Virus record (IMG/VR): IMGVR_UViG_3300010430_000078
Span: 1 to 47,537 of that record
From: a virus
Direction: 5' to 3' (one strand)
Length of the DNA: 47,537 nucleotides
A model generated the notes under the pieces. That model worked only from the letters and a program-made list of their open reading frames with translations. It did not search any database and had not been told where the DNA came from. Positions 1 to 47,537 of the stretch are shown piece by piece. Position numbers and translations under genes: made by a program. How positions within the stretch are numbered: position 1 is the stretch's first letter; every line of letters begins with the position of its first letter.

Positions 1-123
1 CTGGCCGACAACGCTGCTACGAGTCCGCTGACCGAATTGTATGTTGCTTTGCATACGGCGGACCCCGGCGAAAGTGGCGATCAGTCAACCAGTGAGGCGG
101 CTTACTCTGGCTATGCGCGAGTC
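1..123. repeat. Direct terminal overlap, left copy
   Basis: Bases 1-123 are identical to 47415-47537. The repeat lies inside one open reading frame that is intact only when the two ends are merged, so this is most simply an assembly overlap of a circularised contig giving a 47,414-bp unit genome. A physical direct terminal repeat, as in T7-like phages, is not excluded, but its position inside a virion gene argues against that. Confidence 0.9.
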
Positions 124-363
124 GCGGTTGCCCGCAATGGAACCGGCTGGGTAGTAAGTGGCAATGTAGTGAATCCTGCCGCTAACATCGACTTCCCAGA
201 ATGGGCTGGCGGCTCCACGAGTGACATCACCCACTTCTCCATCGGCGTTGCGTCTTCTGGGGCTACCGGGATTCTCTATAAAGGAGCCTTGGCTTCTGCT
301 ATCACGATGGGCGCGGGCGTGACTCCTGGCCTCTCAACCGGCACCTCAATCACCGAGGATTAA
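1..363 (+). CDS. Virion (tail-associated) protein, C-terminal part of the gene that starts at 47346
   Basis: This is the 3' part of a gene whose ATG lies at the right end of the window (47343 or 47346). Joined across the circle it encodes about 143 residues. Frame 1 is open from the first base, reading LADNAATSPLTELYVALHTADPG. The text resembles a widespread small phage virion protein family with a GYARVAVAR core, a GW..SG turn, and a THF.IG..SSG.. segment, often annotated as a tail fibre or tail protein; I recall the family pattern but not an exact function. It sits directly upstream of the long fibre gene (6-bp gap), consistent with a tail role. The protein made from 5644-6099 shows the same GY.R....R...GW..SG spacing and may be a distant paralogue. 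Confidence 0.75.
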   Translation: MADNAATSPLTELYVALHTADPGESGDQSTSEAAYSGYARVAVARNGTGWVVSGNVVNPAANIDFPEWAGGSTSDITHFSIGVASSGATGILYKGALASAITMGAGVTPGLSTGTSITED

Positions 364-369
364 TTTGTC

Positions 370-3300
370 ATGGCGATGCCGGTTTGGTTAGCTACCTCCG
401 CTAAACGCGACTCAATTTCTGCGATAACTTTCGACTTGTCGGTGCTTGGACACGCGGCAGGCGACCTATTGGTGATCGTAGCTGAGTGTCTGTCAGGGCA
501 GACAATGGCAGCGCCAACCGGCTGGACCGACACCTATACTTCGATTCAGCCCAGCATACGTACGCTTCGAGTCTTTACTAAAGTATCAGACGGAACCGAG
601 ACCTCCGCACAGATCCTTGACTCAGGTAATCACCAATCAGGCGTTGCGTTTGCTTTACGCGATCCGTCTGACTCAGGGCTGACGCTCAACTTCGTACAAG
701 AAGCCACGCAGCTGTCTGCGTCGACTCTTAGTTGGGCCTCCTACACCACGAATGTCGACAACGCCTTGATTGTGAGTCTCGCAGCCCTCTCCTTCGATGG
801 CGCGACTAACCCTACGATCACTGGACTCACAAACTCAAACCAAGCCGCCTTCACTCAACGGGAAGCATTCACCCACCAGCGTGGCTCCGGCGGCGGTATC
901 GTTGTCTTGAGCGGCGAACTCGCGTCTGCGGGTGCAACAGGACTCACTACCTGCAACTTAGCGGAAGTCCAAGATACAATCTCCCTGTTGATGATTGTGA
1001 CTGAGACGGCCACCGGGGGAACCAACGAGCGCCGAGTCGGTACAGCGGACGGGGTAGCCGCCGCCACCGGGGCTGGGGTCTCCGATGTGAGTCTTCCTGG
1101 CTCTTCGGCTGGGGTCGCGGCTGCAACTGGCGCAGGGCTGGTTCGAGTCACAGGCAGCGTCGCAGGCACAGCAAATGTCGTTGGAGATACACAGCTTCCC
1201 GTAAGTCGCAGAGTCGGTCTGGCATCCGGCGAGGCCGCGGCGTCTGGTATTGCCTACGCAAAGAATCGTCAGCTAGGCACCTCAACCGGTTTGGCGACTG
1301 TCCTGGGTTCTGTAGTAACGGGTTCCAGGGTCGCAGGACTCGCAGAAGGGTCAGCCACTTCACTTGGTGTGGGTTACGGCCTAGAGCGAATCCCAGGCAC
1401 CTCAACTGCCGGTGCGACCGTCACGGGTGTCGGCAAGTCCTATGTGCAGGCAACTGGACTCACAGAAGGCTCGGCTACGGTAGTCGGGGTCACCACTGAC
1501 TTTGGATTCTCTCGGCGAGTCGGCACCTCGGTCGGGCGCGCAGTCGTTGATGGTGTCGGCCTCGCAACAATCCGCGTTATCGATACTTTGCCCCCGGGTG
1601 AGTCATACGACCCCAACCGGTTCAGATTCGATTTGCCAAGTTCCATCCGCGACGTGTCGGATGACTTGTTCGGATTCCTGCGCGACCAGACGGAAGGACT
1701 ACGTGAGTTCAACAATGGAGCGCTATATGGGGCGCTCCGCATCCCGCAGAATCAGCTGACGAGTCGGTACGCTGAAGAGATTTACCCCCTAGGGAGTCGG
1801 GCAGCCGTACAACTTTCAACCGGGCATACTTCGTTCGTGGAGTTCGTCCGGTTTACTGACGTACAAGACACAGAGAATCCCGGCCGGTTGGTATATCGTA
1901 CGACTGAACTAACTGTCGAACCCACCGGGAGTGAGATTGATTTTGCTGGCATCGACTACACCTTTACAGGTGAGGGTGAGTTCGGCTGGGTCATTTACGG
2001 CGGGTATGCGCCAATTCATGTTGGACTGTACTCCGGTGAGTCGCCTGCTGTAGTTGGCGCGGCGGGAATTGTTTTCTCCACTTTGACCACCAACAAGTAT
2101 GGTGTCATCAACGACGGGATGATTCACCTCAGGAACCTGTTCCAGTTGGATGGCGCCGCCGCGGATGAAAGCATTGCGACTCAAATCGCAGAAATGCTGG
2201 CCAGGCTGAATCTCACCGAGAACCAGATCGCAACATTGCAAACGGATCTGGAGACGATTTCCGGCGCCTTCGGTCAGTTCAAGGCTCAGTCTCTGATTGC
2301 GCTCTCCCGACTCGAAGAAAAGCTTCCGACCGACGAGTTCTCGACTGTATACTCGGAGTTCTTGGAGCAGACAGCCGCAGTTGTCGCCCTCGGCCAGAGG
2401 ATTGAAGCGGACCGCGTTTACATTGACGCGCAGACTTCCTCGATTCTCGGCTACGCGAACGCCGCCTATAGTTCGACCTTGGTTGCGCAATCGCACTCGA
2501 AGGACTCCCTATTCTGGGCCACGGCGTCAGAGACTCGCTCACTGGTAGCATCGGCACATGCGCAAAATGCGGCTACCCAAGCGGGAATCGCCCAGACATT
2601 CTCGGTCGCAGCCGGCGAAAGTGCCGCGTCAGCCTCCGCCGCTCTCGCTGTATTTGCCAGCCTGGGAGTCCCGACGCTTGTAGAGAATAGCGGATTCGAC
2701 ACCTGGGAAGATCCCAATACGGTCCCCGACAAGTGGAACCGCAGCGACGGACTCTTTGCTGACATGTCAAGACAGGTTGGTTTCAGCAGCGCGTACGCTT
2801 TCAGGCTGTCAGTCACGGCCAGCAGGAAGACTCGACTCCAACAGCGTGTGTCAGACCAAACGAACGACTTGCTGGACAACCTCACAGCCGGTTGGTATGT
2901 ACTCGAATGCGACGTCAAGTTGGTCGAGGGTGCATTCAACGACATGGCGATTGGGCTGCTTAAATACGACTCATCGCTGACGCTACTTGGGACCGAAACT
3001 TTCCTGATCTCGGCCGAGGAGTCAGCTGGTGTCACAATTGGCAGCGGCACTGTGGGTAACATATACCGGATTCGCAAACTCGTTGAGTTGACAGATCCGA
3101 CGCTGGACCAACTAGGAATCTTCCTTGAGGGCGGCGACGACGCAGTAAACCCAGCTGCCAACTATCGAGTCGACTTTGACCGCCTAGACGTACGAGTAGC
3201 TACGCCCGCCGAAATCGCTACCGAGACGGTCCTTGAGTCAGTAGTTGCCCAGGTCGCCTCGATTCAAACTTCGGTAAACACCCTAGTTACAGACGTATCT

Positions 3301-6101: not shown

Positions 6102-7868
6102 ATGGAACGGAATATCAAGGCGGCAAACATCAAAGGACTCACACCTGCGGTAGACCCCGCAGAGTCCAATGAAGTCTTCTCCCTGAGTGGGCGAAACTAT
6201 GAGTTTGACTCCCGAGGCCCTCGTAGTGGGTTTGGGGACCGCTTGCTGCTGCCTCAGCCGTTTGTGAATCCCGGCCATGTATCTGGCGCCCGGATCAAGT
6301 TGCGCGATCGCGACCGGAGTTTCACGTTTACTTCAGACGGGATTCTTGAGTGGTCCGAGACACGTGGCGGCTGGCGCCCGGTATATCTGACTCCCGACTT
6401 GACCGAGTCCGCCCACCGCTGGACGTGGGGCTACCTGAACAATTATATCTATTTTTGCCATCCTCGAGTCGGCATTTTGTCCTACAACGTGGATACGGAA
6501 CGGTGCTTGCCTCACCCTGGTCCGGGACTCCCCGAGGAACCCCTTGCCGTAGCTATCAACAACGGCTTGCTCATGGTGCTCACGCCGACGGTGTTGGCTT
6601 GGAGTCAGCCTAGTAATGGGCAGGATTTCACGCCCAGCCTTGGTGGGGCAGGCGCCCAAGTCCTTGCAGAACGTGTCTCGGGATTCCCTGTGATGATCTC
6701 CAGCTACGCAGGCGGCTGTCTGACATGGACCACAGGCGGAGTCATGCGTTCGGAGTTCACAGCAGACGAGAAAGTATTCCGGCACAAGTCACTCCAGACT
6801 GAGTACCGCCCGGTTAATTCCTTCTGTGTGACTCAGCTTGACGACGATACCTCGGTGATTCTCGATGAACGTGGACTCTTCAAATGCTCCGGTGAGAAGC
6901 CAGTGCCGTTTACTCCGTTGTTCAACGAGTTCCTTGGCCAGTATATCCAAGACAATGACTTGAAGATCGGCACCAATGTCCGAATCGAGTGGGACGAGTT
7001 GCGCCGCTATTTGTATGTAAGTGTCAGCTACTCATTCGTGAATCCTATCTACGAAGAGTGTTTCGTGCTGTACCCGAACCTCGATCAATGGGGCCAGTTC
7101 AATGAGGAGCACTACGGGATTCTCCCATTGGTCGTCGAGACAGGGGACCGCGAAGGCGACTACTTTGGGTATGTTGACTCAGCCGGGCAGTTTCGCTACT
7201 GGAATCAGGGAAGTTCGAGAGAAGTAACCCCAGAGGCCCAGACTGAAACAGCCATGAGTTATGATCTGCACTATCCTTTGATTCAAAAGCCGACCGCTGC
7301 GATTGACGGGGACACTGGCTGGGTGGTTTCATCCTCGGGGCGAGTGAGTCACAAGAGCACGCCAGACCTGCCGCCGCGCGCCTCATTTTACGCAGGTGAC
7401 GGAACAACTCCCGCTCCGGCTATCTTGACAGGACTCGACTCGGTCATTCGGATCGGTCTTGTGCGGATGCAAGGGGATGAATCCAGCGAACAGATGAGCG
7501 AGATTACCGGGGTTTTGCTGCGGACAGGAATCACTGGACCAGAGGACACAGTCCAAGTCGACTACAACCTAGTACCCCCGGATACTTCGGATGAAGACTA
7601 CAACGAGTTGTCAGGCTCAGAGGATTTCGGACTCGATCCTACCAACTATGTAAATCACAGCCTTCGGTTGGTAGGCACGGTGGATGCTACGTCCGAGTTT
7701 GACTCCGTAATCCCTGAGGTAGTCGAAACAAAGAAAGGCGCCCGCTATTACACTTGCAGTTGCGTGGGAGTCTGGCATCTTGTTGAGGTGAGCGCCGAAG
7801 ATGTGGGAGAATTTTACCACATCCGAACTCTTGAGTTAACCGGAATCGATGCAGGGAGGCTAAATTGA
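6102..7868 (+). CDS. Large beta-rich virion protein, tail (588 aa)
   Basis: ATG at 6102 with GAGGTAATC before it. The sequence is almost wholly beta-type with regularly spaced Trp, Tyr and Gly (for example SETRGGWRPVYL, NGLLMVLTPTVLAWSQ, GGCLTWTTGGVMRSEF), compatible with a beta-propeller or repeated sandwich. No catalytic motif is visible. It lies between small tail proteins and the collar-domain fibre, and its stop codon overlaps the TTG start of that fibre (TTGA), so the two are translationally coupled. By position it could be a tail-tube or stabilisation component; family not recognised. Confidence 0.6.
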   Translation: MERNIKAANIKGLTPAVDPAESNEVFSLSGRNYEFDSRGPRSGFGDRLLLPQPFVNPGHVSGARIKLRDRDRSFTFTSDGILEWSETRGGWRPVYLTPDLTESAHRWTWGYLNNYIYFCHPRVGILSYNVDTERCLPHPGPGLPEEPLAVAINNGLLMVLTPTVLAWSQPSNGQDFTPSLGGAGAQVLAERVSGFPVMISSYAGGCLTWTTGGVMRSEFTADEKVFRHKSLQTEYRPVNSFCVTQLDDDTSVILDERGLFKCSGEKPVPFTPLFNEFLGQYIQDNDLKIGTNVRIEWDELRRYLYVSVSYSFVNPIYEECFVLYPNLDQWGQFNEEHYGILPLVVETGDREGDYFGYVDSAGQFRYWNQGSSREVTPEAQTETAMSYDLHYPLIQKPTAAIDGDTGWVVSSSGRVSHKSTPDLPPRASFYAGDGTTPAPAILTGLDSVIRIGLVRMQGDESSEQMSEITGVLLRTGITGPEDTVQVDYNLVPPDTSDEDYNELSGSEDFGLDPTNYVNHSLRLVGTVDATSEFDSVIPEVVETKKGARYYTCSCVGVWHLVEVSAEDVGEFYHIRTLELTGIDAGRLN

Positions 7869-8929
7869 GTAAGATCGTCCAACTAGCTGGCGCGATTCGT
7901 ACAATCGCCGATACCTACATCGGGCTGGCGCGCGAACTCACGGTCGATACATCTAACTGGAATCTCCGCCTGCATGACGGAGCCACAGAAGGTGGGCATA
8001 CGTTCCTGAACTTAACCAATGCCGACGCTCGGTATCAGGCCAAGAGTCCCGAACTCAGTGGCTTCATCGAGTTAGAGCCGCAGGAGCGCGGTGTGCTGGT
8101 TCGAGTCGGGCCTGCCGAGTACCGGCTGCGTCAGATCGATGTTGTCACTGCCGGACTCACAATCACCTACGCAGACGGTTTCGCGAACAACCCGTTGATC
8201 GGGCTTGCGCCTACCATCACGAGTGACCATGCGTGGACGGGCGCCCATTCCTTTGCGCAGGCTATACAAGCGAATCTCATTGGTGATGTTTTAGGTAACT
8301 TAACCGGCGATGTTCTCGGCGACGTAACCGGCAATCTGACTGGCAACGCAGCTGGGAATCACACAGGCACCTTTACCGGCAGCGTGAATGTCTCGGCTGG
8401 GACCATTACTTTCGCGGATGACCAAATCCCTTTAAGCGCGGTGAATGGCGCAGCCGAGGCAATCTCCGCCGTTGAGTTCCCGGCAGGTGGAATCATCATG
8501 TGGTCCGGTTCTGTTGAGTCAATTCCGACCGGCTGGCGGCTTTGCGATGGCACGAACGGAACCCCGAATCTTCAGGACAAGTTCATTGTAGGTGCGGGGC
8601 TTACTCACGCGGTTGCGGCGATAGGTGGTGCTTTGACTCACACTCACGGCGTCACAGTAGATTCGGACGGGGCGCACTTCCACCAAATCACAGGGGCGGC
8701 GACCGCAGCGAGTGTTACAGGTGTTGCGGCAAACGTAGCCACGGCTCAGGTAGAGAACGAGCAGAGCCAAGAAACTGTCGTCAGCACAGTAGGAATCACA
8801 GACCCAGGCCACTTGCATACTTTGTCTGGAAACACAGACTCAAACGGGACTCACAGTCACACAGCGGCCACTGGGGCCACGAATCATTTGCCACCATATT
8901 ATGCGCTGGCATTTATTATGAAAGAGTAG
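7865..8929 (+). CDS. Tail fibre with phage collar domain (354 aa)
   Basis: TTG start at 7865, supported by GGGAGG 5 bases upstream and overlap with the preceding stop. Residues about 135-180 carry short tandem G(D/N)(V/L).(G).LTG repeats typical of fibre shafts in marine podoviruses. The C-terminal part contains a tail-collar signature: GGIIMWSGS..SIPTGWRLCDGTNGTPNLQDKF, then His-rich THTHG, GAHFH and GTHSH segments and the closing LPPYYALAFIMK. Such domains occur at fibre tips or baseplates and bind metal through the histidines. Likely a receptor-binding or accessory fibre. Confidence 0.85.
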   Translation: MSKIVQLAGAIRTIADTYIGLARELTVDTSNWNLRLHDGATEGGHTFLNLTNADARYQAKSPELSGFIELEPQERGVLVRVGPAEYRLRQIDVVTAGLTITYADGFANNPLIGLAPTITSDHAWTGAHSFAQAIQANLIGDVLGNLTGDVLGDVTGNLTGNAAGNHTGTFTGSVNVSAGTITFADDQIPLSAVNGAAEAISAVEFPAGGIIMWSGSVESIPTGWRLCDGTNGTPNLQDKFIVGAGLTHAVAAIGGALTHTHGVTVDSDGAHFHQITGAATAASVTGVAANVATAQVENEQSQETVVSTVGITDPGHLHTLSGNTDSNGTHSHTAATGATNHLPPYYALAFIMKE

Positions 8930-8938: not shown

Positions 8939-9808
8939 ATGGCATTCGGACTTAGCTTCGGCGGCAAAAAGAACAAGATCGACAAAACAACCTCCGTTAA
9001 CTCAACGGAAAATACAGCGCAACAGCAGACCGGCACCAAAGCACAGTCGGGAAGTACGGCGACTAATACCGCGCGGAACGAGAATACCGCCACGAGTAAC
9101 GCTGGCACGACTCAGGGTCGGACCTCTAGCCAGACGGCGGGGACTTCCAGCGGCACCACTACGAACGCGCAGCAGCTTTTTTCTGGCGACGTGCTTTCGG
9201 GACTCGAAGGGCTGGCCACCCAGCTAATCGGGGGTACACCATCGGTGGCCGCTTCCCCGTTCCAGTTTGACGCTGACTCATACATCAAAGGCGGGGTCGC
9301 TCAGGCGGAAGCCGCGCAGAAGATGGATCTTGAGGCTAACCTAAGTGGACTCACCAACGCTATTGGGGGCACGGCGTCCGGCAACACGATGAATGCATTG
9401 CTTGCGAATCGCCTTCGTGGTGACGCAGCAGCCAACATCGCCGGGGTTCGGTCAAGCTATACTGAGTCGGCCAATGAGATCGAGAACCGGAATCTCCAAA
9501 CCGGCATCGCGCAAACCGGACAGCAACAGGGATACCTGGCAAACATCCTGTCGATCCTCAAGGGCGGCACGAGTACCTCTGTCGGGGAGCAACAGCAAGT
9601 CACTACAGAGCAGCAAGCCGGGACTCAGGCGCAAGCAACTCAAGGTACCCAGCAATCCGCTACTACGGGCCAAGAATCGAGTCAGCAAACCCAGCAACTT
9701 ATCGAGGCACTGGATCAGTTACTCAAGGGCAACACGACGAAGGTCGGCACCGAACGTGTTAAGGGCACCGAGAAGAAATCGGGTGGTGGATTCAGCCTAG
9801 GATTCTAA
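8939..9808 (+). CDS. Internal virion (ejection) protein, first of three (289 aa)
   Basis: A low-complexity Thr/Ser/Gln/Ala-rich N terminus (residues 15-80) is followed by a helical centre (about 95-190: EAAQKMDLEANLSGL, LLANRLRGDAAANIAG) and another Gln/Thr-rich part. Small size, position immediately upstream of a transglycosylase-containing protein and a giant protein, and Ala-rich helices match the smallest ejectosome protein of podoviruses (T7 gp14 position). In that role it would leave the capsid and form part of the trans-envelope channel. The start follows the fibre stop by 9 bases with GGAA upstream. Confidence 0.6.
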   Translation: MAFGLSFGGKKNKIDKTTSVNSTENTAQQQTGTKAQSGSTATNTARNENTATSNAGTTQGRTSSQTAGTSSGTTTNAQQLFSGDVLSGLEGLATQLIGGTPSVAASPFQFDADSYIKGGVAQAEAAQKMDLEANLSGLTNAIGGTASGNTMNALLANRLRGDAAANIAGVRSSYTESANEIENRNLQTGIAQTGQQQGYLANILSILKGGTSTSVGEQQQVTTEQQAGTQAQATQGTQQSATTGQESSQQTQQLIEALDQLLKGNTTKVGTERVKGTEKKSGGGFSLGF

Positions 9809-9817
9809 GGATAAGTC

Positions 9818-12769
9818 ATGCCAAATCGTACACCAGAAATCCTAGACCAAATCACTGCGGTAGCGGAGTCGAACAACCGCGACTACGATGAACAGGGGCG
9901 GCCCGTAACTTCCTCGGCAGGCGCGCGATTCGCAATGCAAGTGATGCCCGCGACTGCGCGTGACCCCGGCTTTGGGCTGCGTCCAGCTGACCCGAACAAC
10001 GCAGAGGATATGAATCGCCTAGGCCGAGAGTACCGGGCAACCATGGAACGTCGCTATGGCGGTGATTTGGCTAAGATGTGGGCGGCTTACAATGCAGGTC
10101 CAGGGCGAGTCGACAGTGCGATCCAACGCTACGGCAGTGATTGGCTTCGCGGAATGCCCTCGGAGACTCAGAACTATGTGCGCAACAATATGAGCGCAGC
10201 AGGAGGCAGACAAGTGAGTGGAAGTAACCGCGGCAACGATCCAAGCAGGTTCCTCGAAGGACTCGAATCCTCCCTTGGCCCCGAACAGGCGGCCAGCCAG
10301 AACGTGCGAGTCAACGGCAGCAAGACTTTTGGCTCGGACGAGGAACTCTCCCGCAGGCAGGCTAACGTCGAGGATGCCACTAACCGCCAGATGGAGGGAA
10401 TCCAAACCCTCGGTGACGTCATGGATGCCACGCAACTTGCTACGCGTGAGGCTCTGACTCGTCAGGTGGAATCCACACGTGCAGTTAACGACGAGATGTC
10501 TCGCGGGACTCAGGCTTTGAAAGAGAAGGTCGCGCCGGTCTTCCGTGCACGGCAGGAAATCGCCGATCAGCTTGACCGCATCAACGAGATGAATCCCCTT
10601 GAGCGCGGCATTCGGGGTATCTTTGACTTAAACTACAATCAGGATCACCTGACCGAACGACTCGACGCTTACGATCGGACGTTGGCCGCGCGCTCCCAGG
10701 ATTATGAGTACCTACAGGCGCTACAGACTGACGCTATCTCGCAGTTCAATACCCGGTACAGCACCGAGGTTGCGATTCCTTCCCTGTTGCAGCAGCAGGC
10801 TAGCGAAGACTTGACCCTCCTAGGGCAGGCGCTCTCTACTACTAGTACACAACTTGGGAATCTCCAAGGCGAAATCGCTATGGAATCGCAGATGGTACGC
10901 GCCAAAGCAGCCATGCGCGAAGACCTCATGACGGAGTTGGACCTGCCGACTCGAGTACGACTCGTGCAAGAAGCCGAAGCTAACGGCGGGATCGTGAACT
11001 ACGAGGGAGTCGAACTTACCTACGCGGGCCTACGGCGGTCTGTAGAGAACAGCGAGCAGCGGGCCGCGCAACTGGAGTCATACCGGAACGCAGCGGTGCT
11101 CGGCCGAATGGAATACGCAGATCGATTCGCGACTGAAGTAATCCGCGGGATGAGCCGCAAAGAAATCGAAGACGCAATCGCGAATGACGGCAAGGTGGGC
11201 GACACGCAACTCCCGATGGATCGGCTCACGAGTTACCTGCGCCAAGCTATTGAGCGCGACGCTACTATGGCGAATGTCGAGGTGGCTAGGAATCGTACGC
11301 TGAATATCCAACGTTCGGCGGGCGCAGTTGTGCAACAGCAAGTCACGGCACTCCGGCGTATGATCGATATGGGGAGTGGAGCCGGGCTACAAACCGCATC
11401 TGGGATTATGAATAACTCGACTGCCTCGCTGCGTAAGTTACAGAATGCAATCGAAACTGGCCAGCCCCCAGAAACGATTCAAGCGTATGCGATGGAGTTG
11501 CAGGAGTCAACTGCTGCCTTCGATCAGGAAATCCAGCGGAGGGCGGCTGCACTTTCAGGCGGCAACAAGGACTCAGAAGGGTTCATCTACAACTACCTCA
11601 AAGGTGAGCGGTTGACGCCGGGTGCCGCGATGGACGCTGTAATTCACTTCGGGATTCGTGGTTCACTGCCGGAAGGTTTGGCGGCCAACCCCACTGCACG
11701 AGGAGTCTTCTCGAGGGTTTCCCAATTGGCCGCGGAGATTCGTGAAGATGAACCCAAGATTTCTGCCGCGAGATTGAGAGAACGAATCTCCGCTACTCTT
11801 GCAGAGGAAATTCCTAACCTTGTGGCCGGAGATCGATTCAACACAATCTACCAGAACCTTCCTGAGGTTGCCTCAGAGATCGACCATCCGTTTAAGAATA
11901 TGCCGATGAGTCGCTGGGCTACAATCCGAGCGGCAGCTTCCGAGCACGCTATCAACGCAATGGCTGGGCAGTACCAAATCGACTATAACGAAATGAAGTC
12001 GATGATGGATAATCAAAGGCCATTTGACTCGTCGGAGAAAGCTAGGGAGGTCTTCGAAAAGTTCAGCACCACAGGCGGCCAGCAGTTCAACGCACTTGAG
12101 ATGACGAATCTCGTGATGCGGCTTGATCGTGAGCCAGCCGTTGCGCCCGGGACCAGTAACTCAGAGTTGCTTGAAGATTTGTTCAATGATCCCCGACTCG
12201 CGGTATCCGGCTCACGACAGTTTGAGCGTCATTTGGGCGCGAATTCCTTTGCGGATTATGTCATGAATCCCATTGCGCGTGGGGCACTCGGTGGGCGGGT
12301 CGGCGACCAAGCGGACTTCCTGCGGCAGGGGCAGCAGAGTCACTACGCGAGTCAACGTCAGATCACGAACAACCCCCAACTAAGTTTGGTAGGCAGGCCA
12401 GAAGTGCGGATTCCCTCGACCATGGCAGCTATCGAAGGGGTGGGACTCGACGGTGCACGCCGAATGCTGCCGTATGTGAATGAATTTGTGGAATCCGGCC
12501 AGGCTGGTGTGACTTTTTCGGTCGACTCAATCACCATGATGCAACGTCAGGACACGGCGTTCGTCGAATACCTAAGCCGCTTACAGATTGAAGATCCTGC
12601 GATTGACTCGTACAGGAAGAAGATCGTGGCCGGTATGCCAGAGGCCGCAACCCGCAGTTTGGGATTCATTGACTCGGTAGGCCGCGTCGCCGGTGAGTTG
12701 CTGAATCTCACTCCACCCGCGCTTCGCGATGACCGTCCTGCCAACTTGCCTGACTCCTTCGGAGATTAA
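9818..12769 (+). CDS. Internal virion protein with lytic transglycosylase domain (983 aa)
   Basis: Residues 1-125 form an SLT/lysozyme-like domain: AVAESNN with the expected catalytic Glu17, QVMPATARD at 41-49 and AAYNAGPGRVD at 89-99, the three hallmark SLT motifs. The remaining about 850 residues are long helices rich in Gln, Glu, Arg and Ala without another recognisable domain. In podoviruses such proteins are ejected and cut peptidoglycan locally during DNA entry. In T7 the SLT domain is at the N terminus of the largest ejection protein (gp16); here it is on the middle one, and the next, larger protein lacks it. The upstream stop is 9 bases away with AAGGAT before the ATG. Confidence 0.85.
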   Translation: MPNRTPEILDQITAVAESNNRDYDEQGRPVTSSAGARFAMQVMPATARDPGFGLRPADPNNAEDMNRLGREYRATMERRYGGDLAKMWAAYNAGPGRVDSAIQRYGSDWLRGMPSETQNYVRNNMSAAGGRQVSGSNRGNDPSRFLEGLESSLGPEQAASQNVRVNGSKTFGSDEELSRRQANVEDATNRQMEGIQTLGDVMDATQLATREALTRQVESTRAVNDEMSRGTQALKEKVAPVFRARQEIADQLDRINEMNPLERGIRGIFDLNYNQDHLTERLDAYDRTLAARSQDYEYLQALQTDAISQFNTRYSTEVAIPSLLQQQASEDLTLLGQALSTTSTQLGNLQGEIAMESQMVRAKAAMREDLMTELDLPTRVRLVQEAEANGGIVNYEGVELTYAGLRRSVENSEQRAAQLESYRNAAVLGRMEYADRFATEVIRGMSRKEIEDAIANDGKVGDTQLPMDRLTSYLRQAIERDATMANVEVARNRTLNIQRSAGAVVQQQVTALRRMIDMGSGAGLQTASGIMNNSTASLRKLQNAIETGQPPETIQAYAMELQESTAAFDQEIQRRAAALSGGNKDSEGFIYNYLKGERLTPGAAMDAVIHFGIRGSLPEGLAANPTARGVFSRVSQLAAEIREDEPKISAARLRERISATLAEEIPNLVAGDRFNTIYQNLPEVASEIDHPFKNMPMSRWATIRAAASEHAINAMAGQYQIDYNEMKSMMDNQRPFDSSEKAREVFEKFSTTGGQQFNALEMTNLVMRLDREPAVAPGTSNSELLEDLFNDPRLAVSGSRQFERHLGANSFADYVMNPIARGALGGRVGDQADFLRQGQQSHYASQRQITNNPQLSLVGRPEVRIPSTMAAIEGVGLDGARRMLPYVNEFVESGQAGVTFSVDSITMMQRQDTAFVEYLSRLQIEDPAIDSYRKKIVAGMPEAATRSLGFIDSVGRVAGELLNLTPPALRDDRPANLPDSFGD

Positions 12770-26097: not shown

Positions 26098-26451
26098 TTA
26101 GGCGACTTGTACCCCAGCCGTGATAAGTTTGACTTTGCCATTGAACGAGTACCCCAAAAAGGTTGTGTTACTTCTATTCGACTCAATCAGGTCACTCTCG
26201 CCATAGAATCGCAGGTGCTCTCGCAACCTATGCATTTGAACCGCGACGGTGTTTGATCTGCGAGTCCATTTGTGTCCAATCACTTCGCAACCTAACTCTT
26301 TCGTGGTAACAGGCTCGCCGTTCTTTAATGCTATATACGAAAGGAGTCGCAATTCCATCGGATGCACCGGAACTTGGCTGTCCCGATAGTACAGCAATTG
26401 TCTAACTAAGTCAAGGCGAAAATCACGGAAGTGTAGTTCAATTTTGATCAA
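26098..26451 (-). CDS. Single-domain OmpR/PhoB-type winged-helix regulator (117 aa)
   Basis: Residues 20-110 match the transcriptional regulatory C-terminal domain of OmpR/PhoB proteins: VHPMELRLLSYIALKNGEPVTTKEL (helix 1 and first turn), TNTVAVQMHRLREHL-like recognition helix (RRSNTVAVQMHRLREHL) and the final wing FLGYSF, equivalent to the family's GYRF. There is no receiver domain, so activity would not depend on phosphorylation. The start is TTG at 26451, with AAGGGG 8 bases upstream and overlap with the previous stop. A likely DNA-binding transcription regulator of the phage or host, possibly acting at the control region near 36.5 kb; that target is a guess. Confidence 0.85.
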   Translation of the reverse strand: MIKIELHFRDFRLDLVRQLLYYRDSQVPVHPMELRLLSYIALKNGEPVTTKELGCEVIGHKWTRRSNTVAVQMHRLREHLRFYGESDLIESNRSNTTFLGYSFNGKVKLITAGVQVA

Positions 26452-26843
26452 TGAATCAACCCCTTGCGGGAAGTAATCTCAAAGATCTTCGGGTCCACGG
26501 TGACTCCGATTTGCTGGCACTGAACCCAGGCTTCTTTCTTGTAGCGCAGAAAGGAATCCGGCGACGGCAGCTGATACAGAATCGCCACCGAAACAGCCAA
26601 CTCGTGATCGCGCGGTTCCCTCCACAAGGGGACTTCCTCGCCTACTTTGTATTGGATGGTTTGTGACTCAATATCACCAGCATTTTGGCGGGCCTTGGTT
26701 GCGAGCATCGCGTAATAGAAGCACGCATGGCAGGCACGGTCAATGACGAGTGCACCGTGTGGCTGAACGTACGACTCAAAATATGGGTACTCATAATTGA
26801 GGCGGCGTGTCAGCGATTCGTCTTGTTTGGTTGGCTTGGCCAT
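26448..26843 (-). CDS. Unknown protein (131 aa)
   Basis: Mixed alpha/beta protein with a basic start (AKPTKQDESLTRRLNYEYPYFESY), a CHACFYYAMLATKAR segment and a charged, aromatic C-terminal half (VPLWREPRDHELAVSVAILYQLPS). The paired Cys-x-x-Cys could bind a metal but there is no second pair. It starts at ATG 26843 with GGAG about 7 bases upstream, 1 base after the previous stop, and overlaps the winged-helix gene, so the two are likely co-expressed. Family not recognised. Confidence 0.75.
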   Translation of the reverse strand: MAKPTKQDESLTRRLNYEYPYFESYVQPHGALVIDRACHACFYYAMLATKARQNAGDIESQTIQYKVGEEVPLWREPRDHELAVSVAILYQLPSPDSFLRYKKEAWVQCQQIGVTVDPKIFEITSRKGLIH

Positions 26844-28195: not shown

Positions 28196-28907
28196 GAGTC
28201 CCGCCTCCCATCAAACCATCCAGCAGCGCCATTGCATCGTCGCTGACTCCGGCTTTCTTGCGGGCGTTCTTCTTGGTTGCAGCACCGCGCTTCTTCGATT
28301 GCTTGTTGACCCTTGCGAGTCCCATCGTTCGGCGCATCCCACGAATCATTACGTGAATGTCCTCGTCGGCGAGCAGCTGATCGTACTCGCTGTTCTCCTG
28401 CAACTCAATCATAATCATCCGCACTGATTGCCCGAACATATCCGGGTCATGTAGTACTTGATAGACACCATCGAGTGAGTCAACGAATGCTTTCATCTCG
28501 TCAGTCAGGTCTTCCGGCAACGCACGGTCCGGCGCCGATGCTTCAATTTCGTCCTCGAAGGATTCACCCAGACTTTCCTCTTGGGTGCTTTCAGCCACCG
28601 AACTTGCCTCGAGTCCTGCGAGATCATCGAGACTAAAGTCGCCAGAGTCAACGGCATCCTTTGCGCTGGTGGATACTTGTTTTGCTGAATCAGCCGCTGG
28701 TTTCTTAGGTGCAGCAACTGGCTTAGTCGCCTTTCCCGCCAAGTTGAGTCCGAGAGCTTTGGGCTTCTCCGCTGGATTTGATTCAGCGTTATTGCCATCC
28801 GAAGTCGCTGGCTTGGATTCCGATTTTTCGACAGCTTGCTGAGTCTTAGGCTTGGCATTGACTGCATCCTTCTGTTTCTGCAACGCTAGAAGATTTTTCA
28901 GGGACAT
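28188..28907 (-). CDS. Unknown Lys/Ala-rich protein (239 aa)
   Basis: Residues 1-130 are low-complexity and disordered, alternating Lys/Ala/Pro-rich and acidic parts (GDFSLDDLAGLEASS). Residues 130-190 look folded (DEMKAFVDSLDGVYQVLHDPDMFGQ, QENSEYDQLLADEDIHVMIRGMRRTM), followed by a basic tail. The short motif GLNLAG at 53-58 recurs at residues 5-10 of the RecD-like helicase (31188-33581), in both cases followed by Lys, Pro and an AAP triplet. Its ATG overlaps the previous stop (TAATG). It may tether replication proteins; no family recognised. Confidence 0.75.
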   Translation of the reverse strand: MSLKNLLALQKQKDAVNAKPKTQQAVEKSESKPATSDGNNAESNPAEKPKALGLNLAGKATKPVAAPKKPAADSAKQVSTSAKDAVDSGDFSLDDLAGLEASSVAESTQEESLGESFEDEIEASAPDRALPEDLTDEMKAFVDSLDGVYQVLHDPDMFGQSVRMIMIELQENSEYDQLLADEDIHVMIRGMRRTMGLARVNKQSKKRGAATKKNARKKAGVSDDAMALLDGLMGGGTLD

Positions 28908-29242
28908 TAGGATTCTCTTTCCATCAGATCATCAAGTATTTCGCGGGATTTGTGGTGAATCTCTTGCTCGACCCATACCACAATACAGTCATGCCGCTTG
29001 CCTTCGCGAGTCGTGTAAGGGTAAATGGTGTGCCGCAAAGTGAATCGCTTTACCTTGACACCGCGCCCCTCGTTTCGTTTGCGTGATCGGGACAGCGCGA
29101 CTCGAAGTCTTTGCACTACCTTAAGTCCGTCTCCCGCCGCAACCAAGAACTGTACTCGCTCGCCGCACGCGCAATGATTCAAAAGGCGGGCAAGCAATTC
29201 AGTAGTTTTCCACTTAGGGTCAGGGTTGATTAGTAAAGTCAT
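28907..29242 (-). CDS. Unknown basic protein (111 aa)
   Basis: A helical N terminus (WKTTELLARLLNHCACGERVQFLV), a very basic centre (LRVALSRSRKRNEGRGVKVKRFTLRH) and an acidic, helical end (EQEIHHKSREILDDLMERES). AGGTG is 8 bases before the ATG at 29242, and a near-consensus promoter (29270-29298) lies just upstream, which makes this the first gene of a leftward sub-operon that runs into the nuclease. Possible nucleic-acid binding from charge alone. Confidence 0.7.
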   Translation of the reverse strand: MTLLINPDPKWKTTELLARLLNHCACGERVQFLVAAGDGLKVVQRLRVALSRSRKRNEGRGVKVKRFTLRHTIYPYTTREGKRHDCIVVWVEQEIHHKSREILDDLMERES

Positions 29243-36907: not shown

Positions 36908-37120
36908 CCTCGTTACTTCTGACTCCGATCAACCTTCCGTCTGCTTTGCTTCTGGTCCCGATTACCCTGGCTTCCGGGTTTTTTCCGCTCGCCGGAGTTT
37001 TGTTGCCGTTTGACTCGCTTCATCGCATTTCTTGCACAACTCATCGCACGCGCCGCGCAATCGCCCGCGCATTCGCTATACTCGTACACGGCACACACGC
37101 CACGCATAGGAGAACTCACA

Positions 37121-37351
37121 ATGCTTAACAAATTTCAGGAACTCGACACTCGAATTGCTGCCGCGCAGGATCGCGCCGACTTGCTTTCACTCGCTGAACT
37201 CTTGGAATCCCTCACCCATGACGCACACGAAGCTGTCAAGCTAGGTGAATACGAAACCGCCCTCGGCCTTTTGGAAACTTTGCCGGGCGTGCGCTCTGGC
37301 ATTAGCAGCGCATTGCAAACCAAAATTCGCGGGAAGCGCATAGCAAAGTAG
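37121..37351 (+). CDS. Small helical protein, first gene of the rightward arm (76 aa)
   Basis: Start at ATG 37121 because AGGAG lies 8 bases upstream. The product is helical with leucines in heptad-like spacing (NKFQELDTRIAAAQDRADLLSLAELLESL, EYETALGLLETLPGVRSGI) and a basic end (TKIRGKRIAK). A TATACT element at 37077-37082 could be its -10 box; no matching -35 is seen. Family not recognised. It precedes a promoter and the 290-residue gene. Confidence 0.75.
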   Translation: MLNKFQELDTRIAAAQDRADLLSLAELLESLTHDAHEAVKLGEYETALGLLETLPGVRSGISSALQTKIRGKRIAK

Positions 37352-37354
37352 CCC

Positions 37355-37383
37355 TTGACCCTCTCTATCGTGCATGAGACTAT
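37355..37383 (+). promoter_or_regulatory. Rightward promoter candidate
   Basis: TTGACC (37355-37360), 17 bp, GACTAT (37378-37383). It starts 3 bases after the stop of the previous gene. The segment GCATGAGAC(A/T)AT(A/T)A across the -10 is shared with the main leftward promoter. The leader to the ATG at 37450 would be about 60 nt. Confidence 0.55.
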
Positions 37384-37449
37384 TACCTAGTCGCGGGGGC
37401 ACGAAACACATTCCGCGACTTACAACCAACCAAAGAAAGTGACTTACAC

Positions 37450-38322
37450 ATGACTGAGCAAACCACATCCGAAGACAAGGCGCAGACTGTCCTTGAGGAC
37501 ATGGACCAGCGCCGCTTGTTCGACTCCACCGACGAGGCAACCGCCTATATCCAAAAGTGCCAGACTGACTTCAGCGACTTCGGCAATTTCCCGGTCGCTG
37601 CCGTAGGACTCACTGACGCCGGCGACTTTGATCCCGAAATCTATCACGATGGGATGCAAGTCGCAGTTTCGGTAGTGACAAAGCGCGGCGATGGCCCGAA
37701 CTCCACGACCGTTCATTGCATCACGATCTGGCCAGCGCCTAGGCTGGAATCAATTCTTGAGGATGCGCAGGGACGCGAATGGCTCACTGGCATCATGGAG
37801 AAGGAACTCAACCACGTTGCAGTTCGCCAGATTCGCAAGGCCACTGACGCTGCCGAAATCGCGGAAGCCGTTGGCTCCATGCCTTCAAGCGTTGCCGACT
37901 TCACGACTTCGGGCCGTGAGAGCACCAGCGGAATCCTCGAAACCTACAATCAGCTTTGGCAGGTTATCAAGAAAGGCATGGGTGCCAAGTCCAAGCCGTG
38001 GGCATTGCGCAACTTCAGCAAGAAGGAAATGCGCAAGGCGATGGAATCCGCCAGCTACGCGAGCGCGGTATATCCCAACATCGAAGACCGCACTAACAGC
38101 AAGGGAGAGAAGGAATCGCTTTTCGTACTGGCCATTATGTTTGGCCAAATGCTCGCTAAGCAAGAATCCCTCGACCCTACCATCTTTGACCGGATGGCCG
38201 CGCACCGCGACGAACGCGACATTGCAGTTCAGGACGATGAGGAAGAATTCGACCTTGAAGCAATGGCCGCAAGTCTCGTGCAGCCTGCGGAAACAGAAGA
38301 CGCCGAAACTGTCGAGGCTTGA
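37450..38322 (+). CDS. Unknown acidic-tailed protein (290 aa)
   Basis: A folded-looking N-terminal two thirds (FSDFGNFPVAAVGLTDAGDF, QVAVSVVTKRGD, STTVHCITIWPAP) followed by helical parts and a very acidic end (RDIAVQDDEEEFDLEAMAASLV, ETEDAETVEA). It has its own promoter upstream and a strong terminator 17 bases after the stop, so it is expressed as a single-gene unit, suggesting an abundant protein. A DNA-binding or host-interacting protein is possible, and the acidic tail is reminiscent of SSB-type proteins, but no family is recognised. Confidence 0.8.
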   Translation: MTEQTTSEDKAQTVLEDMDQRRLFDSTDEATAYIQKCQTDFSDFGNFPVAAVGLTDAGDFDPEIYHDGMQVAVSVVTKRGDGPNSTTVHCITIWPAPRLESILEDAQGREWLTGIMEKELNHVAVRQIRKATDAAEIAEAVGSMPSSVADFTTSGRESTSGILETYNQLWQVIKKGMGAKSKPWALRNFSKKEMRKAMESASYASAVYPNIEDRTNSKGEKESLFVLAIMFGQMLAKQESLDPTIFDRMAAHRDERDIAVQDDEEEFDLEAMAASLVQPAETEDAETVEA

Positions 38323-38338
38323 TCTTCTAACTCACACG

Positions 38339-38373
38339 AAGGGGCGGGCTGGCAACTCGCCCCTTTTCTTTTA
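38339..38373 (+). terminator. Strong intrinsic terminator
   Basis: AAGGGGCG (38339-38346) pairs with CGCCCCTT (38358-38365), 11-nt loop, followed by TTCTTTTA (U-rich). It ends the rightward unit of the 290-residue protein and insulates the packaging genes. Confidence 0.9.
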
Positions 38374-38734
38374 TCCGTGAGTAGAACAAACGGAGAACGC
38401 CCAAAAATTTCGCCTCGCTTCGCTCGGATTTAATTGACTTCGCTTACGCTCAGACTCTTTATATATATTAGTTAGTCATACTCATAGATCTTACGCTTAG
38501 TATGACTCCTTAGTTCTTCTGGCTAGCTGGTTGCTGTCCCTTCGAATGACTCGCTACGCTCGACTCTGTTGTTTGTTTTGCGCAGGGCCTTGTCCACCAT
38601 GAGTCCTTGTGTGAGTCACAGTAATTACTAAGGGGGGCGGGGGTATCCCCCCATTTCGAAATTGGCCCCGCGCTCTTAATATGGACCCCACAATGTGTAA
38701 CAAAAAAATAATTTTCAACAAAAGGAAATGAGTC
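38374..38734. other. Non-coding structured interval between early and late rightward units
   Basis: No credible gene in about 360 bp. It contains a 9-bp inverted repeat AGTCATACT (38474-38482) with AGTATGACT (38499-38507), four related CGCT(T/A)CGCT-like words (near 38413, 38443, 38489, 38549), a GGGGGTATCCCCC hairpin starting at 38641, the palindrome ATTTCGAAAT at 38655-38664, and TTGACT at 38434 followed by a TATATATAT run that could be a weak promoter. It lies just upstream of the terminase genes, so an operator or packaging-site role is possible. Confidence 0.6.
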
Positions 38735-38934: not shown

Positions 38935-39612
38935 ATGAGTGGCGCCCTAACTGTTGAGTCCCTGGAGACGATTCTTGGTCGGGAGGTGGAGGAGATTCAC
39001 CTGACCGTCGCGAAGAGTAATGTACTCGGACTCGACCCCGATACGATTGCCCATACGCTTGGAGTCTCGAAAGCCGAGATAGAAGAGCTGATGGAAACTC
39101 AGGACTACAAGGACATACGACTCCTTGTTGGTGCCGAAGAAGCGAAAGATCGCGTCGAACGTGACGGTGGATGGGACGGAATCGAAAGCACCGCAGTCCG
39201 CAAACTTATGAGAAGGACGGCCCTCGAAAATGACACGGATACCTTGTTACGAATCGCAGCAGTCGCCAACAAGGCACAGCGACGAACAGCTCCTCCAAAG
39301 GAGTCGGTCCTTGATCCAAGCCAAGCAGGAGCGCGAGTTCCTCTGTCTCTTACACGACGATTCACCGAGAAGCTCAACGGACAGGGCCAGGTTACCGAGC
39401 GGTCTGAGACTCAACAGATCAGCGTGCTAAACGGATCGGCGGTCAACCCAAGTTTCAAAGAAGTTAACTCGCTGTTGCAGGGTGATGTGACTCCTACACC
39501 GCAGGTGCCACGGACGAACCTAGCCATTCAGCAACAGCGGCAAGTCGAAGTCGAAGAAGATTTCAGCCTAGAGAGTCTCCGAGAAATGGCGAAAGGAATT
39601 AAAGATGGCTAG
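38935..39612 (+). CDS. terS: Terminase small subunit (225 aa)
   Basis: A helix-turn-helix segment lies at residues 32-54 (LGLDPDTIAHTLGVSKAEIEEL), as in small terminases that bind the packaging site. The centre is helical and basic (AVRKLMRRTAL, LLRIAAVANKAQRR), and the C-terminal part is disordered with a final acidic EDFSLESLREM. It sits two genes before the large terminase. No Shine-Dalgarno sequence is evident and the promoter lies so close that the mRNA may be leaderless. Assigned from HTH and position. Confidence 0.7.
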   Translation: MSGALTVESLETILGREVEEIHLTVAKSNVLGLDPDTIAHTLGVSKAEIEELMETQDYKDIRLLVGAEEAKDRVERDGGWDGIESTAVRKLMRRTALENDTDTLLRIAAVANKAQRRTAPPKESVLDPSQAGARVPLSLTRRFTEKLNGQGQVTERSETQQISVLNGSAVNPSFKEVNSLLQGDVTPTPQVPRTNLAIQQQRQVEVEEDFSLESLREMAKGIKDG

Positions 39613-39961
39613 TATTGGAATCGGGGGAGACCCCGAAAACTACATGCAGGCGCCGAGGATTCAGGCTGCGGACGGTGGCTTGGCAGGTAAGTTTATCGCC
39701 AGTCTGTTGGACAAGATAGGAGTCAACAAGCAGGTGGGTACCGGCGAACCGGCTTCGGGGGGCGGCAAGGAGTCAGAGATGGTTGAGCCTGAGATTCTCA
39801 CAGGTGGCCCCGCCGCAGCCTCCCCGAGTCCTGGAGGATTCCCAGCCTTAGACGCGGCCAGCCAGGTTTTTCCTGCGCAAGACACCGAGTCAGAGTGGGG
39901 TAAGCGTTGGCTGAACTCCTTGCGCCCAATTGGAAGTATTGATCCCAACGACACGTTCTAA
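39605..39961 (+). CDS. Unknown Gly/Pro-rich protein between the terminase genes (118 aa)
   Basis: Overlaps the small terminase by 8 bases and the large terminase by 1 base (TAATG). Gly-, Pro- and Ser-rich, largely disordered (SIGIGGDPENYMQAPRIQ, GTGEPASGGGKESEM, GPAAASPSPGGF), with a short ordered end (WGKRWLNSLRPIGSIDPNDTF). The overlaps show translational coupling. It may be a packaging or head-completion accessory, but no family is recognised. Confidence 0.7.
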   Translation: MASIGIGGDPENYMQAPRIQAADGGLAGKFIASLLDKIGVNKQVGTGEPASGGGKESEMVEPEILTGGPAAASPSPGGFPALDAASQVFPAQDTESEWGKRWLNSLRPIGSIDPNDTF

Positions 39962-41523
39962 TGGAAGCCTACGACGACCTTCACAAGCTCGACACTGAGT
40001 CAGAGCGGGATAATGATCCCAATACGCGCCCGGAAACGGTTGACGCGGTTGCGAGTCGTGGGGAAATCATAGATCGGTTGGAACGGGACGGTGAGTTCTT
40101 CATCGAGTTCTTCTTGGCCGAGGAGCTTACGAGTCCCGTTCCTTTCTTTCACCATGGGGAGATATGGCCGCTACTCACCGACACCGCGATGCAGCGAGTC
40201 CTACTTGCGATTCCTCGCGATCACGCGAAAACGACCTTGTCGAAACTCGCCGTAGTTTGGTATTTTCTATTTTCTAACTCACGGTTTTGCGTGTATCTGT
40301 CGAATACCAACACAATCGCTAAGAATGCCTGTAAGGATATCATGGGGTACTTTGACTCCCCGAACTTCAAGGCGACTTTCGGCGGGATCAAGAGGATCAA
40401 GGAGTCAGAGACAGATTCACTCTGGATTTTCGAGGTCACCATGCGTGACGGGAGAACTAAGAGGTGTATCTTACGCGCAGTTGGCGCAGGCCAGCAGATG
40501 CGAGGAATCAACATCGACAACCAACGTCCCGATATCGCAGTCGTGGATGACGTTGAAGATAACGAGAACACTGACTCAGAACTCCTACAGCGAAAGCTAG
40601 ATCGTTGGGTGTTCGGGCCTTTCATTAAGGCACTCGCAAGGCGCAAGAAAATCATCTGGCTCGGCAATATGTTGCAGAAGACTTCCTTGCTGGCACGACT
40701 TTCGACTCGCCCTAACTGGAACCCAATTAAGTTCGGTGCGTTGGTCAAGGATGCAGCTACCGGTGAGTTACGCCCCCTTTGGCCTGAACGCTGGAGTATG
40801 CATGAATTAGTCGAGGACTTCGAAGAGTACAAAGACATGGGACTCGTCGAAACCTGGATGTGTGAAATGATGAACATGCCGGGGCACGGGGTGGACGGAT
40901 TCACGCAAGAACAAATCAACTTCGCGCCGGTGCCAGGCAGTGACGAGATTCTCGCGGCTTGGCTTATCCTTGACCCGGCGTTCGGCGAGAAAGCGACCAA
41001 CGATGACTCATCAATCACTGTTCATGTCCTACCTAAGGATGGGCCTCCGATGGTGGTCGAGCACAGGACTGGCAAGTTCAAGGAGGACGAGTTATTCGAT
41101 TTGATGTACAACCTGGGACTCAAGTGGAACGCCTGGGTCTGGGGGATTGAAGCTGTCGCGGCTCAGCGAGTCCTGATACCATTCTTCCAGCTTTTGCTGG
41201 TCACGAAACTTATGAATCACTCAGTCGAGATAGTTCCACTGATGGCCGGCAAAGGCGACCCGAAGATATCACGAATCAAATCCTGGGTCGCCTTAATGGC
41301 CAAAGGTGAGTACGCTGTCTATGAGGGTGCGGTCGAGATTACGACTCAGCTTCTGGACTACAACATGAAAAAGACCTCGAACAGGGATGACTTGATTGAC
41401 TCCTGCGCGTATGGTCCGCAGATGCTACTTCAGTATGAGGGATTGCTGTTTGCCGCCTACCAGGGTGTAGATGAGTCACAGGTCCCCAAAACCATCTATG
41501 GAACGGAGATGTCACGTGTATGA
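39961..41523 (+). CDS. terL: Terminase large subunit (520 aa)
   Basis: ATPase half: Walker A-like AIPRDHAKTT (83-92, an RDHAKTT variant used by many podovirus terminases) and Walker B DIAVVDDVED (191-200). Nuclease half: LILDPAFGEKA (Asp338), WGIEAV (Glu397) and a late DDLIDSCAYG acidic motif. Length is normal for the family. It cuts the concatemer and drives DNA into the procapsid through the portal encoded next, whose GTG start lies inside the last codons of this gene. Confidence 0.95.
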   Translation: MEAYDDLHKLDTESERDNDPNTRPETVDAVASRGEIIDRLERDGEFFIEFFLAEELTSPVPFFHHGEIWPLLTDTAMQRVLLAIPRDHAKTTLSKLAVVWYFLFSNSRFCVYLSNTNTIAKNACKDIMGYFDSPNFKATFGGIKRIKESETDSLWIFEVTMRDGRTKRCILRAVGAGQQMRGINIDNQRPDIAVVDDVEDNENTDSELLQRKLDRWVFGPFIKALARRKKIIWLGNMLQKTSLLARLSTRPNWNPIKFGALVKDAATGELRPLWPERWSMHELVEDFEEYKDMGLVETWMCEMMNMPGHGVDGFTQEQINFAPVPGSDEILAAWLILDPAFGEKATNDDSSITVHVLPKDGPPMVVEHRTGKFKEDELFDLMYNLGLKWNAWVWGIEAVAAQRVLIPFFQLLLVTKLMNHSVEIVPLMAGKGDPKISRIKSWVALMAKGEYAVYEGAVEITTQLLDYNMKKTSNRDDLIDSCAYGPQMLLQYEGLLFAAYQGVDESQVPKTIYGTEMSRV

Positions 41524-45789: not shown

Positions 45790-45815
45790 GGGAGTTGCAG
45801 ACCTCCCGATTTTTT
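45790..45815 (+). terminator. Terminator after the major capsid gene
   Basis: GGGAG (45790-45794) pairs with CTCCC (45803-45807), 8-nt loop, then GA and six T (45810-45815). A short stem with a U-tract, so likely partial: it would lower transcription of the downstream tail genes relative to capsid. Confidence 0.65.
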
Positions 45816-45837
45816 GCAGACAACGAACAGGTGACAT

Positions 45838-46230: not shown

Positions 46231-46254
46231 TAACGAGTTTCGGGGTATTTGCTC

Positions 46255-46959: not shown

Positions 46960-47333
46960 TGGTGAATCTAATTGATGGGCTAAAGGAAGGAGACCACGAA
47001 TCAGTTGATAGAGCCATTGATACAAAAATTCTGGCCGCAGAAAAACGAATCATCCAGAACATCAAGCTGTGGTTTTTCACTGGGCTTTTGGGATTGGTCC
47101 TTTCAGGCGGTACGGGTTTTGGAATCGTGATCTTTCAGCTTGGTCGTATGTCAGAGCAATATTCTCGAACAGCGGAGGCCGTTAACGAGAGTACAATCGC
47201 CCTGGAGAATCGCGCAAGGTGGATGGAACGAAAAGACATCCTAGATGATGACATGATTCGTTACTTGAGGAAGACAGGCTACACACCTCCTTCTTGGTAT
47301 CTCGGACGTGACGCTGATATTACTGGTAAATAG
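46959..47333 (+). CDS. Membrane protein in the tail operon (124 aa)
   Basis: GGAGG lies 9 bases before the ATG, which overlaps the previous stop (TAATG). An amphipathic helix (residues 20-38) is followed by one hydrophobic segment (WFFTGLLGLVLSGGTGFGIVIF, about 38-60) and a charged C-terminal half with a coiled-coil-like helix (QYSRTAEAVNESTIALENRARWMERKD). The shape resembles phage proteins sometimes annotated as a second holin or tail-associated membrane protein. Its role is not clear. Confidence 0.65.
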   Translation: MVNLIDGLKEGDHESVDRAIDTKILAAEKRIIQNIKLWFFTGLLGLVLSGGTGFGIVIFQLGRMSEQYSRTAEAVNESTIALENRARWMERKDILDDDMIRYLRKTGYTPPSWYLGRDADITGK

Positions 47334-47342
47334 AAAGGACTC

Positions 47343-47537
47343 ATGATGAGCAAAAGTAATGTATTTGAGAATGATCTCCTGGACCTAATCTTTAACGGAA
47401 CGGCTATCCCGAATCTGGCCGACAACGCTGCTACGAGTCCGCTGACCGAATTGTATGTTGCTTTGCATACGGCGGACCCCGGCGAAAGTGGCGATCAGTC
47501 AACCAGTGAGGCGGCTTACTCTGGCTATGCGCGAGTC
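47343..47537 (+). CDS. Virion (tail-associated) protein, N-terminal part (continues at base 1)
   Basis: AAAGGA precedes ATG 47343 and ATG 47346, the latter being better spaced. The frame (SKSNVFENDLLDLIFNGTAI, then PNLADNAATSPLTELYVALH) runs out of the window and is continued without break from base 1 to the stop at 363. The opening LLDLIFNGTAIPNLADNA is characteristic of the small phage tail protein family noted for the other half of this gene. It is listed twice only because the contig ends inside it. Confidence 0.8.
   Translation, partial: MMSKSNVFENDLLDLIFNGTAIPNLADNAATSPLTELYVALHTADPGESGDQSTSEAAYSGYARV
47415..47537. repeat. Direct terminal overlap, right copy
   Basis: Identical to bases 1-123. 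Removing one copy gives a closed 47,414-bp molecule. Confidence 0.9.

Follow-up and report, generated by a model that had tools for sequence, protein, structure and literature searches.

A registered GANTC word in a clade of tailed phages: a possible register mark for a nucleoprotein array

SeqA binds paired hemimethylated GATC sites, and the pairs lie at roughly helical-turn distances. DNA uptake sequences and Chi-like words are over-used across whole genomes; to our knowledge, such words are longer and follow no fine spacing rule. Protein p6 of phage phi29 coats the phage DNA, each dimer covering 24 bp (12 bp per monomer) and each superhelical turn taking up ~63 bp, and it reads a pattern of bendability with no specific sequence (PMC10899789). 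Known Alba proteins show no sequence specificity in binding DNA and occupy ~3-10 bp per dimer (PMC3325275). A literature search found no description of an enriched, registered word of the kind presented here, and a registered word that switches between clades is without known or findable counterpart.

The window, meaning the whole stretch of DNA analysed, is the complete 47,537-bp virus record IMGVR_UViG_3300010430_000078. Its gene content identifies a tailed phage, with genes for terminase, portal, capsid, large internal virion proteins, DNA polymerase, primase/helicase, and a Dda-like helicase. Relatives were found, and clades ordered, by identity of the large terminase:

39961..41523, plus strand: large terminase

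Distant terminase relatives include podovirus-type PaP2, Tiera, and EBPR podovirus 3, and no terminase relative was found among the 84,980 species of genome_contigs. The core set comprises ten related genomes (G000-G009, G000 being the window genome), nine of 45-49 kb and one of 28 kb. Helicase identity of the nine relatives to the window phage is just 42-61%.

Abundance and spacing of GANTC

Genome-wide enrichment of GANTC had been proposed in the initial annotation from hand counts in three blocks, and the complete count bears this out. The window holds one site per 65 bp, which amounts to 2.92x the half-site expectation:

1..47537, no strand: GANTC sites (728), whole record; neighbour spacings peak at ~12, 26, 33, 50, 58, and 84 bp

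The blocks at 9361-10020 and 38941-39660 contain 11 and 15 sites, as counted before, and the block at 1-840 contains 13 rather than 14. All four versions of the middle base are indeed present (GACTC 209, GAGTC 198, GAATC 174, GATTC 147). Among palindromes of the same shape, GCNGC ranks next at 1.40x, the range for words other than GANTC is 0.68-1.40, and the control words GTNAC and CTNAG are not enriched (1.01 and 0.76).

The same annotation held that the word shapes codon choice and had set a codon-preserving shuffle beforehand as the refuting test. Across the ten genomes, the synonymous-codon shuffle did not reproduce the count, with 7040 sites observed against 2828 expected (z=121), and control words fell at 0.54-1.13. 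A compositional or codon artefact as the source of the excess is thereby ruled out. About 47% of the GANTC positions that the encoded proteins permit through synonymous codons are occupied. The excess reported for non-coding DNA also holds, at a density equal to that of the genome as a whole (1 per 51-70 bp). Flanks are weakly constrained, with a preceding A and a following T under-used. The enrichment is thus supported as genome-wide, selected, codon-shaping, and specific to exactly GANTC.

Several other words are strongly avoided in the window. CCAGG and CCTGG occur 19 and 27 times (54 and 47 expected), GAGCT 3 times (24 expected), GCCGGC 5 times (24 expected), and AGCGCT once (11 expected). 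In coding DNA of the ten genomes, CCNGG stands at 0.54x and GGNCC at 0.67x. Avoidance of words of these types looks like restriction avoidance.

Beyond what the initial annotation described, GANTC sites are spread far more evenly than random, with a Fano factor of 0.34-0.41 in bins of 250-2000 bp of the window and few gaps above 200 bp. Nearest-neighbour spacings in the window are multimodal, with dips near 16, 40, 55, and 65 bp. When all pairs in the ten genomes are pooled, spacing density peaks at 25.5, 33.5, 51, 59.5, 77, 85, and 109 bp. In the power spectrum of the pair spacings, GANTC reaches 18.1 at a period of 26.25 bp and 10.8 at one of 8.5 bp, whereas the 95th percentile over 232 words is 3.4 at ~25 bp; the 10.5-bp helical repeat carries no power. 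Words one mismatch away from GANTC all fall well short of its comb score, and such versions were rejected as additional sites.

The 8.5-bp harmonic may reflect sites placed ~4 bp either side of lattice nodes at 4.25+25.5k; we know of no explanation for such a third harmonic in known arrays. Orientation of the middle base was considered for the double peaks and showed no clear dependence. A long-range lattice phase was likewise discarded, as consecutive GANTC spacings are nearly independent.

The ratio of favoured to unfavoured spacings is 2.16, against 1.08+-0.02 for random synonymous-feasible positions; the lag classes were taken from the same genomes, so the corresponding z of 45 is an effect size rather than an independent test. 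The comb is also present among non-coding GANTC pairs (1.46 against 0.97 for a flat distribution). Together, the feasible-position null and the non-coding pairs rule out amino-acid constraint as the source of the comb. Independent support comes from the TGCA clade described below and from the GC-skew wave. A comb at 25-26 bp suggests that the DNA has a built-in ruler for the assembly of a regular protein coat.

With GANTC masked and skew read on the strand leaving the site, GC skew forms a wave with a period of ~26-27 bp. Its maxima lie near 30, 58, 85, and 109 bp and its minima near 20, 46, 73, and 101 bp, with an amplitude of 0.035+-0.004 at the first maximum. On one strand, C-rich sequence is followed by G-rich sequence, and the wave dies away over ~100 bp. 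CGGG starts 27 bp from a GANTC centre 151 times, against 65 expected, and an excess of G at ~27-33 bp recurs across most of the ten genomes. Of the palindromic words scanned in G000, G005, and G018, GANTC anchors the strongest wave.

The nine relatives show GANTC densities like that of the window and a similar set of preferred spacings, which makes the rule common to the ten genomes. Comparison of aligned positions finds GANTC conserved in 28% of cases, whereas control palindromes reach 8-20%; where a site is lost, a replacement tends to lie nearby. Sites of the window genome missing from both of its nearest relatives keep the comb, with a ratio of 2.87 against 3.19 for shared sites and 0.97 for a flat distribution, the lag classes again being drawn from the same genomes. 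The pattern is maintained by selection rather than history.

Change of word between clades

Phages with at least 50% terminase identity are GANTC-rich, at 1.9-3.7x. GANTC is strongly depleted or nearly erased in three contigs at 44-46% identity and in one at 39% (0.22, 0.44, 0.02, and 0.03x). Sister contigs with such a loss are L084, L086, L082, and L083; in the 31-kb contig G019, 2 sites stand against 131 expected. At 35-37% identity, GANTC is roughly normal and TGCA is enriched at 2.4-3.0x, or 1 per ~57-77 bp (G023, G025, L088, and L092). Pooled TGCA spacings peak at 24.5, 49.5, 73, and 122 bp, with periods of about 24.6-24.75 and 12.3 bp. On the basis of 1285 sites, TGCA takes third place among 206 words in power at ~25 bp and first place at 12.3 bp. 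GATC is strongly avoided in the two longer TGCA contigs (31 against 97 and 16 against 58 expected).

Even spacing of GANTC or TGCA is absent at terminase identities of 30% or less and in the cultured distant relatives, and a few of these records are mildly enriched for one of the two words. Tiera, EBPR podovirus 3, PaP2, Kuura, P5, and a Desulfofustis phage show no GANTC enrichment and random spacing. In Caulobacter phage Kuura (L049), a distant relative, GANTC stands at 0.25x with 45 sites over 43.8 kb, a trend opposite to that of the window. An enriched lattice word was also not found in clade members G019, G020, and G021, and a blind scan for lattice words in ~30 other contigs had too little power per contig.

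Two further contigs show features of their own. In the GANTC phage G018 (L146-L148), AGANTCT is 5.1x enriched, yet the preceding A is under-used in the core genomes; its GANTC spacing is extremely even (Fano 0.25). In G026 (L153), TGNCA stands at 1.7x with weak spacing peaks near 48, 60, 74, and 85 bp, from 188 sites only. TGNCA is possibly a third word.

Candidate builders of a protein array

Clade-specific proteins were sought among the 31 gene families that have five or more members in the core genomes, which were compared with 14 outgroup records; the wider clade was defined by terminase identity of at least 34%. Five families occur across the wider clade and in 0 of 14 outgroup records. 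One is a 171-aa family defined from G005, and the others are placed in the window as follows:

28907..29242, minus strand: 111-aa basic protein with a predicted Alba/SpoVS-like fold, present across the lattice clade
37450..38322, plus strand: 290-aa protein with an acidic tail, second candidate
26448..26843, minus strand: 131-aa protein, third clade-specific family
7865-8929: tail-fibre family

The 290-aa family is present in 10/10 core genomes and in 8/8 further clade records above 12 kb. It was the first family to be folded, giving a moderate model (pLDDT 76), and the protein matched no known family and no known fold. Its gene is poor in GANTC (1 per 109 bp) and is surrounded by the following stretch:

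37012..38453, no strand: GANTC-poor stretch holding the window's two largest gaps (317 and 289 bp) and one of 193 bp

In the relatives, orthologues of this gene carry a site every 58-75 bp, which is an ordinary density.

The 111-aa family was picked for folding by clade distribution and size, with its fold still unseen. The resulting model is confident (pLDDT 91, pTM 0.77). Its best PDB matches are Alba chromatin proteins, SpoVS, and Rpp20/25 at moderate TM values of 0.32-0.55, and the top Foldseek match is Alba protein 2h9u (E 7.8e-4, probability 0.99, TM 0.35-0.37). The best viral structural match is a phage SpoVS-like protein. The family has an invariant core, R-x3-SR-x-R, which falls within the long helix of the model. 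The Alba profile in Pfam matched none of the 15 family members. Because of these TM values and the missing profile matches, the likeness to Alba and SpoVS is moderate and stays at the level of predicted fold. A narrow alignment searched for the family in unrelated phages found same-clade members only, and a wide alignment gave no usable pattern.

The 239-aa protein encoded at 28188-28907 was set aside as a clade-specific reader: a look-alike was seen by eye in the outgroup phage Tiera, and the protein was undetected in the TGCA clade. It has a Lys/Ala/Pro-rich, H1-like N-terminus and a basic tail, and the similarly built Tiera protein is encoded near the same exonuclease gene.

Clade distribution and predicted fold make the 111-aa protein the leading candidate for the putative array builder. 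The candidate genes are insufficient for the lattice, since they are also present in G019, G020, and G021, in which no enriched lattice word was found.

The array reading, its rivals, and known systems

Our preferred reading, held at slightly less than even confidence, is that GANTC serves as the register mark of a regular nucleoprotein array used for compaction, protection, or self-marking. The existence of this array, its builder, and its purpose are what we infer from the patterns above. A DNA-coating protein, or a small set of them, would cover the phage genome with ~25.5 bp per unit. At some units, the coat would read GANTC strictly; at intervening units, it would accept weaker, strand-asymmetric preferences, C-rich before and G-rich after the unit centre. 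The array would thus be nucleated and phased at a palindromic word that is specific to the clade. Selection would retain GANTC about every 60 bp and in register, with turnover of individual sites, and sites in register would let arrays begun at neighbouring GANTC fit together. The array would likely serve to compact phage DNA in the cell (or in its packaged form), to protect it, and to mark it as self. The builder would most likely be phage-encoded because the sister clade has a similar 24.6-bp lattice with TGCA.

Such an array is the simplest account of the register, the fading asymmetric wave, the near-independent spacings, the even coverage, and the changeable palindrome. Against it, recognition strict to a single mismatch is seen more often in methylases and nucleases than in chromatin proteins. 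The weakest links of the array reading are the builder's identity and the lack of a lattice word in G019-G021 despite their candidate genes. In a broader and still more tentative form, these phages could be a family with a positional code in which a clade-changeable palindrome (GANTC, TGCA) with a ~25-bp register phases a chromatin array encoded by the phage, with an Alba-fold protein as its possible builder.

The initial annotation had pointed to CcrM, the GANTC methyltransferase of Alphaproteobacteria. The exact word, its genome-wide excess, and its selection stand, and CcrM as the reason is not established. As had been noted, no phage methyltransferase is recognised: the CcrM-type N6/N4 methylase domain PF01555 is absent from all 18 records scanned (the window and 17 related ones), which removes a phage-encoded methylase of this family. 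A host enzyme could act on GANTC all the same. Host CcrM would then methylate the sites and the phage would use dense m6A as a self-mark or as a shield from a defence nuclease, with the sister clades tracking the methylases of their own hosts through TGCA or GANTC avoidance. This is unlikely, though several features fit it. GANTC and TGCA are both palindromes of the type read by methylases and restriction enzymes, the word is recognised strictly, and coverage is even with few long gaps. The GANTC-avoiding sister clade points to a word with strong fitness effects. GANTC depletion is also reported in about half of pelagiphage genomes (PMC9516812). However, the methylation mark does not predict the 26/8.5-bp comb, the ~26-bp skew wave, or the G-run at 27-32 bp. 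CcrM as sole driver is argued against by the comb and the wave, which are unexpected from a simple methylation mark, and by the similar lattice of the TGCA sister clade. Given strict recognition and methylase-like palindromes, host methylation may be a required layer, and mark and array could be jointly true if the array reads m6A. Timing, a promoter switch, and an uptake word, all suggested earlier as purposes, do not predict a 25-26 bp register; a regular coat that protects or packages the DNA could.

Type III restriction enzymes cleave DNA 25-27 bp away from the sequence they recognise. It is improbable, though conceivable, that a fixed-distance enzyme of phage or host reads GANTC and acts ~25-30 bp away, with the comb and the G-run reflecting selection on the point of action. 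The strict word fits this, as does the G-rich tract that most of the ten genomes show 27-32 bp out along the strand that leaves the site; a single distance would not give at least four skew maxima out to ~109 bp or a repeated comb, and no such enzyme is recognised among the annotated genes. We also consider it quite improbable that the phage recruits or titrates a host-encoded GANTC reader, such as a nucleoid or cell-cycle protein. A precedent exists in Caulobacter, where GcrA is reported to bind methylated GANTC (PMC3667746), but titration requires no spacing rule, and a clade-wise change of word at a similar lattice period is more simply explained by a reader that the phage brings along. Stem-loops or cruciforms, at or between sites in single-stranded DNA or RNA, are hardly credible as the cause. 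A C-rich flank followed by a G-rich one could pair within the same strand, but complementarity around centres 8-70 bp from GANTC shows no excess beyond base composition, which leaves hairpins unsupported.

If the array reading is true, these phages carry a sequence-encoded chromatin positioning code that spans the entire viral genome and fills about half of its synonymous opportunities. It would offer a direct route to study how phage DNA is coated or discriminated from host DNA, and it would tie a code at base level to a repeating protein array in a testable way. A further lesson would be that enrichment of a methylation-type word in a phage does not have to imply methylation.

Among known systems, CcrM methylation shares its word with the window phage; these phages differ by the density of the word, the comb, the skew wave, the lack of a CcrM-type domain, and the other or avoided words of their sister clades. 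The likeness to SeqA lies in a protein sensitive to the spacing of short methylation palindromes, but the GANTC periods are ~26 and 8.5 bp, with none at 10.5 bp. Genome-wide over-use is shared with DNA uptake sequences and Chi-like words; compared with an uptake sequence, GANTC is short, with weak flank preference and a spacing register. Alba (Sac10b) and SpoVS provide the best predicted-fold match of the 111-aa candidate, but Alba covers ~3-10 bp per dimer against a register of ~25 bp here and gives no sequence-profile match to that protein. The closest working analogue is phi29 p6, with a ~24-bp repeat against sequence periods of 25.5-26 bp here (24.6/12.3 bp in the TGCA clade), and ~63 bp per turn against a site spacing of ~60 bp. 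No match to the p6 family was found among window proteins scanned against Pfam or PHROGs. Unlike the DNA read by p6, the genomes of these phages carry a strict GANTC palindrome written throughout.
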